Positions 14,853-17,250 of a stretch of 64,000 nt of DNA are shown in pieces (within the stretch, counting starts at the first letter, position 1; each line of letters opens with the position of its first letter). The DNA is from Arthrobacter rhombi (lineage in GTDB: Bacteria > Actinomycetota > Actinomycetes > Actinomycetales > Micrococcaceae). A program made the translations under genes and the position numbers. The notes under the pieces were generated by a model that made no database searches, had not been told where the DNA came from, and saw nothing but the letters and a program-made list of their open reading frames with translations. The stretch is from the NCBI RefSeq assembly GCF_900163545.1, contig NZ_FUHW01000022.1, positions 1 through 64,000 on the forward strand, written 5' to 3'.

Positions 14853-15521
14853 TCAGCCCCCTGCCGCACCAGCCGCGTCGCGCATCGCTTCAGGCCACGG
14901 CAGCCAGTGCCCATCGGAAGGGAGCATGGCTTCTGCAGTCTCCATCCTTCCCTCGGGCACGTCCTCGGCCTGGATGCACCCGGCTTCTTCCCACCGGCCC
15001 GGCTCGGCCAGCCGATAATCGACCGATTGGTCGTCGGTGGGACTAATCCGTTCAAAAAAGCAGCCGGAGATGACGGCTCGCACCACGGATTCAAGGTTTT
15101 CCAGAAGTTCCGGAACGTCGTCATCACAGGCGTCGCAACCGCATACCGGATAGTGGGCGTCGTAGAGGGCACCCGCGTGCAGGAAGATCCCCGGGAACCC
15201 GGTGAAGACGAAGGTCACCGGGGCCGCGAACAGGATGGACGGGACGACCCGGACCGCACGGACGACGTCTTCCGAAGGGAACAGCAAATCGGAGGCAACT
15301 TCCGGTTCCCGTTCGACGACGACGTCGAAAGCACCCAACAGCCAGTCGATCAGGGCATCGGCAACCTCGTGCAAGGGGATGAAACGGTGCCGATGACCCA
15401 CCGTGGAGTAGGCGCGTGAAGGCGGAGACGTTCCTTCCCACCGATGGCCGTAGGCGATCGGTGCGCCCTGTCCATCGCGATGGATCTCCCGGGTGAAGTC
15501 TGGGCGCCGATATCCGCTCAT
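14853..15521 (-). CDS. DUF6226-family protein
   Basis: A 222-residue soluble protein. It begins MSGYRRPDFTREIHRDGQG, and has FTGFPGIFLHAGALYD followed by the cysteine cluster YPVCGCDACDDD, the signature of the actinobacterial DUF6226 family. The closely spaced cysteines (CGCDAC) could bind a metal, but the function is unknown. The start was placed at 15521, where the family similarity begins. Upstream is the riboswitch region of the divergent OsmC gene. Confidence 0.85.
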   Translation of the reverse strand: MSGYRRPDFTREIHRDGQGAPIAYGHRWEGTSPPSRAYSTVGHRHRFIPLHEVADALIDWLLGAFDVVVEREPEVASDLLFPSEDVVRAVRVVPSILFAAPVTFVFTGFPGIFLHAGALYDAHYPVCGCDACDDDVPELLENLESVVRAVISGCFFERISPTDDQSVDYRLAEPGRWEEAGCIQAEDVPEGRMETAEAMLPSDGHWLPWPEAMRDAAGAAGG

Positions 15522-15659
15522 AGCCCCACGGTAGCCGCCGGGATACCGCGTGGCGACGGGAATCACGCTGCAGGGATGGCGGTCCCTCCACATGCGGACG
15601 CGCTGGTGTGTGTCCCCGGATGACGCGACGGGTTTGCCCGATCTACTCTCCCGCCAGCA

Positions 15660-15780
15660 GAATCGAACCCAAGAATCAAGAGATCCAACCCGAGGCCCTG
15701 GCCGGTTGGACGGCAACCCCCTTCGCCATAGTGGGGTGCCCCAGGTGACGATTCGACGCCGTCCCGACCGGGAGGCGTAA
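15660..15780 (+). ncRNA. SAM-family riboswitch (SAM-I/SAM-IV type) in the OsmC leader
   Basis: The 300-bp gap before the OsmC gene contains a recognisable S-adenosylmethionine aptamer core: ATCAAGAGATCCAACC, its pairing partner GGTTGGA, then CGGCAACCCCC, and TGGGGTGCCCCAGGTGA. The GGCAACC and GGTGCCCC-GGTGA blocks match the SAM-IV/SAM-I superfamily of Actinobacteria. TCGAA (15663-15667) can pair with TTCGA (15752-15756) as the closing P1 stem. A second hairpin, ACGCC/GGCGT with inner CCC/GGG (15756-15778), follows and could be the expression platform. Exact class needs covariance scoring. Confidence 0.82.
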
Positions 15781-15823
15781 GTATGGCGCAGCGCTACGCT
15801 CGCCATGACAGCGAAGGAACGCC

Positions 15824-16366
15824 ATGACCGAGACCCTTGCAGAAACCAGCATTTCCAACCGCGCCGAACGCCTCGATTCCGCGGGATCCGCCTGGGCAGA
15901 ACGGATCGGCCAGAATACCGCCAGCGCATCGCTGCAGTTCCGTGCCACCGCCGACCCGGTGGGATCGGTCGGTTCGACCATCCGCGCCGGACGCCACGAA
16001 TTCACCGTCGACGAACCGGCTGCTTTGGCCGGGGACGACGTCGCTGCCAGCCCGGTGGAATACGCTCTCGGGGCGCTCATCTCCTGCCAGGTGGTGGTTT
16101 ACCGGCTGTACGCCCACCAACTGGGCATCAGCATCGACTCGCTGGATATCTCCGCGGATGCCGACCTCGATGTGCGCGGCTTGTTCGGGATCGAGGAGAA
16201 GGTTCGCCCCGGATTCGGCGCCGTTCGGTTGACCGTAGAGGTCTCGGGCCCGGACGCCGAGGAACGTTATGCCGAACTTCAGGCGGCGGTCGATGCGCAC
16301 TGCCCGGTATTGGACATCTTCACGAATCCGACACCGGTGACTACCACTTTGCGGGTCAACTCCTAG
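15824..16366 (+). CDS. OsmC-family protein
   Basis: A 180-residue OsmC/Ohr-fold protein. The two redox cysteines expected in the family are present, in GALISCQVVVYRLY (near residue 87) and DAHCPVLDIF (near residue 162). Proteins of this fold reduce organic hydroperoxides or act on sulfur species with their cysteine pair. GAAGGA precedes the ATG. The SAM-type riboswitch in the leader is notable, because it ties the gene to methionine/sulfur status rather than to peroxide stress. It is convergent with and overlaps by 11 bp the next gene. Confidence 0.9.
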   Translation: MTETLAETSISNRAERLDSAGSAWAERIGQNTASASLQFRATADPVGSVGSTIRAGRHEFTVDEPAALAGDDVAASPVEYALGALISCQVVVYRLYAHQLGISIDSLDISADADLDVRGLFGIEEKVRPGFGAVRLTVEVSGPDAEERYAELQAAVDAHCPVLDIFTNPTPVTTTLRVNS

Positions 16367-17250
16367 AGGCGGCCAGCAGCCGGCTCGCCAGCAGGACTTC
16401 CGAGCCGGCCAGGCCGACCGAACAATGCACGGTAATGTCCTCGGCGTTGCGGCGTCCGGGGACCTTTCCCAGCAGGACCTCGCCTAGGGCCACCAGGGAA
16501 CCCGGGTCGGCGAAGAAGGGGTCAGGATATGCCGCCGCCTGGTCCGGGGAGTCGCAGGTGAGCACGGCTGCTACATCCAATAACGCCACCGGTGTTTCAT
16601 GACTGCCCTGCGACTTCGGGCCGAGGGTCGTCACATGGGTCCCCGGGGCCACGTCGGCAGCGTCGATGACCGGTGTGGAAGAACGCGTAGCCACGATGAC
16701 GATATCTGCATCCCGGACCGCGTCCGCGGCGTCGGTGACAGCAACGGCATTCAGGCCCAGCTCGCCCTGCGCTCGCGCGGCAAAATCCGCGGCATGAGCT
16801 CTGGTGCGCCCGTAAACCCGAACCTGGTGCAGGCGCCGGACTGCCGTGAGTGCCCATAACTGGGCCCAGGCATGGAGACCACTACCGATGACCGCAACGC
16901 TCTCTGCCTCCGGGCGAGCCAGGACATCGGCGGCCACGGCACCCAACGCACCGGTCCTCCGGATGCCCAGTTCGTCCCCCCCCGACCAAGCCCTCCAGAT
17001 CACCTGCTCCATTCCATATGGCCACGAGTTGTTCTCCTGCAGGTTGACCGGCACGGTAGGCCCTGAAGCCGCTGGTCCCATCGGGCAAGGCACCCGCCGT
17101 ATAGACGTAGTCAAGGGACCCGAGCGCGCTTCTGGCCCGCGGTGGGGCGACCAGCTCGCGGCGCCCATGCATCGCCAGCGCCTCCCGCATCCATTCCACG
17201 ACGTCCGCTGCCGCGGTCCTACGCACTTGTTCGTCACCGATGATTTGCAT
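16356..17250 (-). pseudogene. Ornithine cyclodeaminase/mu-crystallin family gene with a frameshift in a run of eight G
   Basis: The N-terminal part starts MQIIGDEQVRRTAAADVVEW at 17250 and runs through FRAYRAGQPAGEQLVAIWNG to GDLEGLV. The C-terminal part, in another frame, starts DELGIRRTGALGAVAAD and has the NAD site VAVIGSGLHAWAQ. The two join exactly at a run of eight G (eight C at 16976-16983 on the plus strand); with seven G the protein reads continuously as a normal family member of about 297 residues. Relatives catalyse NAD-dependent ornithine cyclodeamination or ketimine reduction. It may be a sequencing slip, a fresh mutation or a switchable tract. The 5' end overlaps the upstream gene by 17 bp. 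Confidence 0.8.

Follow-up and report, generated by a model that had tools for sequence, protein, structure and literature searches.

Beyond the classical OsmC and Ohr groups, OsmC-like proteins have, to our knowledge, no settled physiological role. OsmC/Ohr proteins have been described as thiol peroxidases (PMC8945050), and in Candidatus Pelagibacter ubique a SAM-V riboswitch precedes an osmC gene that is clustered with bhmT and ordL; sulfur-limited exponential growth raises the mRNA of this osmC 50-fold and its protein 4.5-fold, and the authors interpret the product as a peroxidase (PMC5069961). OsmC-like proteins are also found near SQR and rhodanese in Rhodococcus erythropolis MI2, in the setting of organosulfur chemistry (PMC5157978), and in the thiosulfinate-tolerance (alt) cluster of Pantoea (PMC9933511). 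Among SAM riboswitches, the SAM-IV class is defined with two pseudoknots, PK-1 and PK-2, in a cryo-EM description according to which the aptamer does not change conformation significantly when it binds SAM (PMC6890682), and in M. avium a SAM-IV element precedes the O-acetylhomoserine sulfhydrylase gene MetY (PMC3774663).

Here we analyze a 64,000-nt stretch of Arthrobacter rhombi DNA (GCF_900163545.1, contig NZ_FUHW01000022.1, positions 1–64,000, forward strand; hereafter the window) in which a SAM-IV aptamer precedes an OsmC-family gene (Table 1). The locus shares with the SAM-IV/O-acetylhomoserine sulfhydrylase system the same aptamer family, matched over the full model, and the A. rhombi genome also carries a SAM-IV element before MetY, but the target in the window is an OsmC redox protein and no methionine or cysteine biosynthesis enzyme. 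Like the Pelagibacter gene, the window osmC lies downstream of a SAM riboswitch; the Pelagibacter element belongs to an unrelated aptamer class, SAM-V, in another phylum and sits with a bhmT/ordL cluster (PMC5069961), whereas the window osmC has no conserved partner. The likeness to the Rhodococcus MI2 and Pantoea proteins, by family and not by orthology, is that an OsmC-family protein is tied to organosulfur or thiosulfinate chemistry; those genes sit in sulfur clusters, and the available portions of the two reports mention no riboswitch (PMC5157978, PMC9933511). A search of the open literature, with the founding SAM-IV paper outside its reach, found no paper that places an OsmC gene downstream of SAM-IV, and we make no claim of novelty in print. 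We consider it probable that this SAM-IV element represses osmC translation and that OsmC is made during SAM or methionine shortage, together with sulfur-supply proteins.

Table 1. Coordinates of riboswitch, putative promoter and gene features in the window
Feature	Position	Strand	Details
Putative −35 TTGCCC	15634–15639	+	18 nt before putative −10; highest-ranked promoter-like pair within 90 nt upstream of the aptamer
Putative −10 CAGAAT	15658–15663	+	10 nt before the aptamer
SAM-IV aptamer	15674–15789	+	RF00634, 84.3 bits
P1 5′ strand	15674–15677	+	Partner 15750–15753; Rfam alignment; paired and invariant in 35/35 leaders
PK-1 5′ strand CCUGG	15697–15701	+	Partner CCAGG 15741–15745; name from cryo-EM description
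PK-2 5′ strand CGCCAU	15724–15729	+	Partner AUGGCG 15783–15788
Putative expression-platform hairpin	15782–15807	+	UAUGGCG, bulged C, AGCG, loop CUA, CGCUCGCCAUG; MFE −14.7 kcal/mol (tail-to-SD segment)
Shine-Dalgarno-like AAGGA	15814–15818	+	5 nt before start codon; sequence
OsmC-family gene	15824–16366	+	180 aa; PF02566 E 6.1e-17

A SAM-IV aptamer and its pairing with osmC

At Rfam gathering thresholds the whole 64-kb window contains a single match, SAM-IV (RF00634), which exceeds the gathering score of 38 with an E-value of 1.3e-13 and spans the full model (1–116) with no truncation; a search of the A. rhombi genome recovered the same match. The original prediction had placed a SAM-type riboswitch before an OsmC gene and proposed a covariance-model check against SAM-I, SAM-IV and SAM-I/IV. 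That check agrees with it and gives the class as SAM-IV, which is significant and was kept as the match in clan competition, with the SAM-I and SAM-I/IV models not best of the clan. The core motifs it had named are likewise present (GGCAACC 15712–15718; GGGGTGCCCCAGGTGA), and the extent it gave, 15660–15823, contains the aptamer but begins within the putative −10 box and ends directly before the ATG.

To assess the structure, we aligned 35 distinct orthologous leaders drawn from 49 leaders of two overlapping genome sets. Standard pairs occupy 93.0% of cells in the named structure compared to 87.3% in shuffles, and sliding the 3′ partners by 1–3 columns as a control reduces this fraction to 34.3–46.0%. 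Changes on both sides of a pair occur in 15 of 40 pairs compared to 11.2 in shuffles, and in 90 cells compared to 31.4, counts that come from related sequences and do not represent independent events; among five measures, the count of further pair types is the exception in not exceeding shuffles (36 versus 33.8, with 96 of 500 shuffles as high). P1, P2 and PK-1 are paired in 100% of cells, P3 in 98.4%, PK-2 in 94.8% and P5, a loosely aligned region of variable length, in 73.5%. One PK-1 pair changes on both sides. No PK-2 pair does so in the 35 leaders, where departures are one-sided or pair losses at the outer pairs, and PK-2 is thus without compensatory support of its own. The SAM-pocket positions 2–4, 7–8, 63–65 and 77, transferred from the cryo-EM model by position number and not by structure (PMC6890682), are invariant in all 35 leaders. 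The P1, P2, P3 and P5 helices and both pseudoknots of SAM-IV are present, and sequence analysis confirms the aptamer as a real, full-length member of this known riboswitch class that is predicted to bind SAM.

The pairing of SAM-IV with osmC recurs across several genera of soil actinobacteria within the family. Among 149 Micrococcaceae genomes, SAM-IV as such is nearly universal (148/149), OsmC relatives at E ≤ 1e-20 are found in 29, and SAM-IV lies directly upstream in 23 of these 29. The window aptamer ends 34 nt upstream of the start codon, and in 23 leaders this spacing is 30–41 nt. Six of the 29 loci have no SAM-IV before osmC (L021, L022, L023, L025, L029 and L033), including L033, which encodes a distant OsmC relative of 38% identity. 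In L029 (genome G127), all that is left of the aptamer is a 32-nt piece of its 5′ half, within the last ~60 nt before the osmC start codon; 29 of these positions are identical to L024 (score 49, compared to 35 for the best of 300 shuffles), and this residual sequence marks L029 as a decayed SAM-IV switch and a natural loss-of-switch variant. The same comparison found no aptamer remnants above shuffles in the other five loci.

A second collection, which overlaps the first and includes many of the same genomes, was used to examine the best 80 of 250 OsmC relatives. SAM-IV lies upstream of 26 of these 80 (13 + 5 + 4 + 4), in loci titled Arthrobacter, Paeniglutamicibacter, Glutamicibacter, Paenarthrobacter or 'Micrococcaceae'. 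The other 54, three Yaniella of the same family included, have no SAM riboswitch at gathering thresholds, and Tsukamurella and Nocardia plasmid osmC copies have no SAM switch even at E 0.1. This absence from 54 of the best 80 relatives rules out a SAM switch as a general trait of this OsmC branch, which therefore does not need the switch. The distribution of osmC itself is patchy: an order-level survey of 396 genomes found a relative at E ≤ 1e-30 in 39. On an OsmC tree built by a quick method (91 rows), the SAM-IV label takes five changes, three of them forced by starred branches, and the weak backbone of this tree does not tell one origin with losses from several gains. A Guanidine-III riboswitch was also observed in a Cryobacterium locus of the comparison (L152 478–541, 53.0 bits).

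No neighboring gene is common to most OsmC loci. The largest recurring clusters within four genes reach 6 of 29 loci, two of these (CL3 and CL4) span genera, and in the second set, where gene calling was heuristic, the largest cluster reaches 8 of the 80 loci (best 80 of 250 relatives). OsmC itself is therefore the likely riboswitch target. Operon context was dropped as a guide to OsmC function for the same lack of a common neighbor. In the window, a divergent DUF6226 gene lies upstream on the opposite strand (14856–15521 scanned) and an ornithine-cyclodeaminase-like gene lies convergent downstream, and osmC thus appears to be a single-gene unit. The convergent gene seems broken into two reading frames close to a tract of eight C (16976–16983); in ORF 16356–17237 the ornithine-cyclodeaminase family match starts at residue 93, the other frame has no Pfam match, and the gene seems to be a pseudogene or the product of a sequencing error.

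OsmC among the targets of a probable sulfur-supply regulon

We surveyed what lies behind 44 other SAM-IV elements, taking the closest well-scoring ORF in each case. They comprise three elements of the A. rhombi genome and 41 of the 44 above cut-off in ten further genomes that carry the OsmC switch, with the three weakest left out (G038:C81:76305, G110:C1:210738 and G062:C1:1680092). The genomes were picked for having the OsmC switch, and the frequency of OsmC itself among them is uninformative. MetY stands behind a SAM-IV element in all 11 genomes, a flavin reductase in eight, a SufS-like cysteine-desulfurase relative in five, a rhodanese in four and DszC/SfnB-like oxidoreductases in two. Target ORFs were grouped by similarity and each family was tested on one or two members: the MetY assignment (L001) scores above the NF005872 cut-off, the desulfurase relative (L189) and the DszC/SfnB-like oxidoreductases (L200, L201) fall below curated cut-offs, and rhodanese and flavin reductase were tested on L213 and L002. 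Exceptions are PIN-domain, VIT1, MFS and unknown ORFs. The target list reads as a sulfur-supply regulon, with these exceptions, of which OsmC is a member by its switch. The retention of SAM-IV before OsmC across genera without a common neighborhood, together with the sulfur genes behind other SAM-IV elements, therefore makes the link between OsmC and sulfur in the original prediction well founded. Action of OsmC on persulfides or methionine-related hydroperoxides, the examples it gave, is hypothetical. Its further contrast with methionine genes carries less weight than it may seem to: general sulfur genes make up several of the other SAM-IV targets in these genomes, and osmC behind SAM-V in Pelagibacter is already published (PMC5069961).

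Closer inspection of 19 SAM-IV loci placed two further kinds of gene. A two-gene unit of DUF1737 and rhodanese stands behind SAM-IV in 4 of 11 genomes (L213, L214, L217 and L219; DUF1737 tested on L214), and an orphan small protein with the motif VLPxxD starts about 9–21 nt after SAM-IV in 8 of 11 genomes (L004 1623–1907, on C15 of the A. rhombi genome, and L206, L212, L215, L216, L220, L222 and L225). Seven of these small proteins are about 88–97 aa long and one is 141 aa; searches gave no Pfam match for L004, L206, L215 and L222 and no NCBIfam match for L004 and L215. A VIT1 gene is next after the small protein in L004, and look-alike ORFs follow it in L206, L212, L220 and L222. These SAM-IV-linked small proteins may form a new SAM-controlled family. 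Two weaker SAM-IV elements, L221 (63.3 bits) and L224 (55.8 bits), precede a short ORF and a PIN-domain ORF (PIN tested on L224), an arrangement reminiscent of a toxin–antitoxin pair.

The first gene after the window aptamer is OsmC-like, as predicted, with a PF02566 score of 62.3 bits against a cut-off of 27.5; its score of 75.3 bits for OsmC_like_Se (NF041052) is under the curated cut-off of 95. Five OsmC-family genes are present in the A. rhombi genome and SAM-IV precedes only this one, with no SAM-IV match in the 1.5-kb flanks of the other four even at E 0.1. Two cysteines are the expectation for OsmC-family redox proteins. All 40 relatives compared conserve Cys88 and Cys160, which are also among the invariant columns of an 18-protein comparison. 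Classical OsmC/Ohr peroxidases carry a catalytic Arg and Glu next to the peroxidatic Cys; E64 and E79 are invariant in the 40 relatives, at positions that may or may not correspond to that Glu. The predicted structure has an OsmC fold (mean pLDDT 83.5), and the nearest solved structure by both sequence and fold is the OsmC-like Geobacter protein GSU2788 (2opl), deposited as hypothetical (Z-score 16.4, 2.0 Å over 167 residues, 26% identity; profile search E 4e-18). Both proteins share DEP..L.G....A.PVEY.L.AL..C in alignment, but 2opl has Ser at the place of the second conserved Cys of the window protein. Structural matches to E. coli OsmC (Z-score 10.1) and to Ohr chains (Z-score about 10–11) are lower, and in this structural model the window protein lies apart from both.

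From these features we infer the biochemical role of OsmC, which would most likely be that of a two-cysteine thiol redox enzyme acting against, or processing, reactive sulfur or peroxide by-products during sulfur scavenging. An alternative that stands at not quite even odds accepts the switch as real and sees in OsmC a general protein of the organic-hydroperoxide or disulfide stress response, with SAM only coupling antioxidant supply to sulfur starvation and sulfur metabolites left untouched by the protein. The OsmC/Ohr fold and the two invariant cysteines are consistent with such a protein, as are the thiol peroxidase activity described for OsmC/Ohr (PMC8945050) and the peroxidase interpretation of Pelagibacter osmC (PMC5069961), whereas the separation of the window protein from E. 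coli OsmC and Ohr and its closeness to 2opl argue against it, as do the OsmC-like proteins beside sulfur genes in Rhodococcus MI2 (PMC5157978) and Pantoea (PMC9933511), which are comparable by family and not by orthology. More tentatively, and at odds we would call unlikely, this OsmC branch could be a dedicated sulfur-starvation enzyme, a two-cysteine protein for the reduction or transfer of sulfane sulfur (persulfides, organic di- or polysulfides, thiosulfinates) made by co-regulated cysteine-desulfurase-like, rhodanese and flavin-dependent desulfurizing enzymes, a role for which SAM-IV in Micrococcaceae and SAM-V in Pelagibacter would have been recruited independently.

Expression platform and direction of switching

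Of the 35 leaders, 24 have their best −10-like hexamer 8–10 nt upstream of the aptamer, with a mean score of 8.4 compared to 7.5 in shuffles; a strict sigma-70 scan found no promoter. From the putative promoter (Table 1), transcription would begin roughly where the aptamer begins, and the osmC mRNA, short and probably of a single gene, would have SAM-IV at its 5′ end. Just upstream of the Shine-Dalgarno sequence, the downstream hairpin takes up the PK-2 3′ strand AUGGCG as its 5′ arm, and hairpin and PK-2 are therefore mutually exclusive. Tail pairing is present in the minimum free energy fold of the tail-to-Shine-Dalgarno segment in 29 of 35 leaders. Competition of both folds for the same tail is shown at the level of predicted base pairing, and the choice of fold would set ribosome access. 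The alternatives are plain in Glutamicibacter-type leaders, GGCGC/GCGCC in some and CCCCUU/AAGGGG over the Shine-Dalgarno sequence in others (−8.9 to −10.6 kcal/mol), and in L024 and L030 an alternative CCUUC/GAAGG covers the Shine-Dalgarno sequence.

In the translational repression mechanism that we favor, bound SAM would stabilize the aptamer including PK-2 and keep the AUGGCG tail occupied, and low SAM would free the tail to form the downstream hairpin, with PK-2 excluded. For the Glutamicibacter leaders and some of those from Arthrobacter, formation of PK-2 would free a complementary strand to mask the Shine-Dalgarno sequence, such that SAM turns translation off; this logic is carried over to the window leader by analogy, folding giving no decision there. 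Attenuation is the mode of many riboswitches, and control could instead be transcriptional, through a terminator or through access of Rho or RNase. We regard this as improbable, given that positions 15540–16500 contain no terminator-like site compared to 0.7 expected in shuffles and that only 34 nt separate aptamer and start codon in the window, a gap similarly short across the family leaders.

Opening energies around the ribosome site bear on the direction of the switch. Blocking the PK-2 strand makes region −14..+6 costlier to open by more than 0.5 kcal/mol in 21 of 35 leaders, with a mean change of +1.54 kcal/mol compared to −0.07 in shuffled spacers, and in 16 of 35 leaders at most 5 of 100 shuffles are as high. 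The change is +1.97 kcal/mol in the window leader (5 of 100 shuffles as high) and +0.5 in L006; eight of the 35 leaders, all from the Paeniglutamicibacter group, have the opposite sign, with a drop of more than 0.5 kcal/mol. Over the widened region −20..+6, all 12 Paeniglutamicibacter-group leaders are at 0.0 or above and 11 of 35 leaders fall below −0.5 kcal/mol, with the window at −4.9 (39 of 40 shuffles as high) and L006 at −6.4. Both regions were chosen after a test of the Shine-Dalgarno pentamer, and they disagree for the window. Mean accessibility of the pentamer itself does not differ between the free and bound states of the leaders (0.40 in each), and this measure was set aside as a switch test for that reason.

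The values for −20..+6, at which the ribosome site of the window and L006 is more open with PK-2 formed, would fit an ON switch in the genus of the window, with the hairpin crowding the ribosome site without SAM and opened with SAM. This is less probable still than transcriptional control: the sign flips for −14..+6 in the same two leaders (+2.0 and +0.5), the plain sequestors in Glutamicibacter, L024 and L030 indicate an OFF switch, and the class also stands before MetY, where repression by SAM would be expected. A chance or decayed aptamer without function is highly improbable: its 84 bits are fewer than the 112.6 bits of the MetY switch in the same genome, but conservation, covariation, the kept spacing of 30–41 nt and retention in differing gene neighborhoods all argue against it. 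A translational OFF switch is well supported for part of the leaders, and for the window it is proposed by analogy with them.

Under translational repression by SAM-IV, a shortage of SAM or methionine would lead A. rhombi to make this OsmC paralogue alongside MetY, flavin reductase, cysteine-desulfurase-like and rhodanese proteins. The locus thus joins a known riboswitch class to an unusual but sensible target, and a SAM-reading switch on osmC is a direct clue to the role of OsmC-like proteins outside the classical groups. Together, these data suggest that the Micrococcaceae SAM-IV regulon reaches well past methionine synthesis to include flavin reductase, desulfurase-like, rhodanese and orphan small proteins, and some of these targets could be assigned to sulfur metabolism through their switch.
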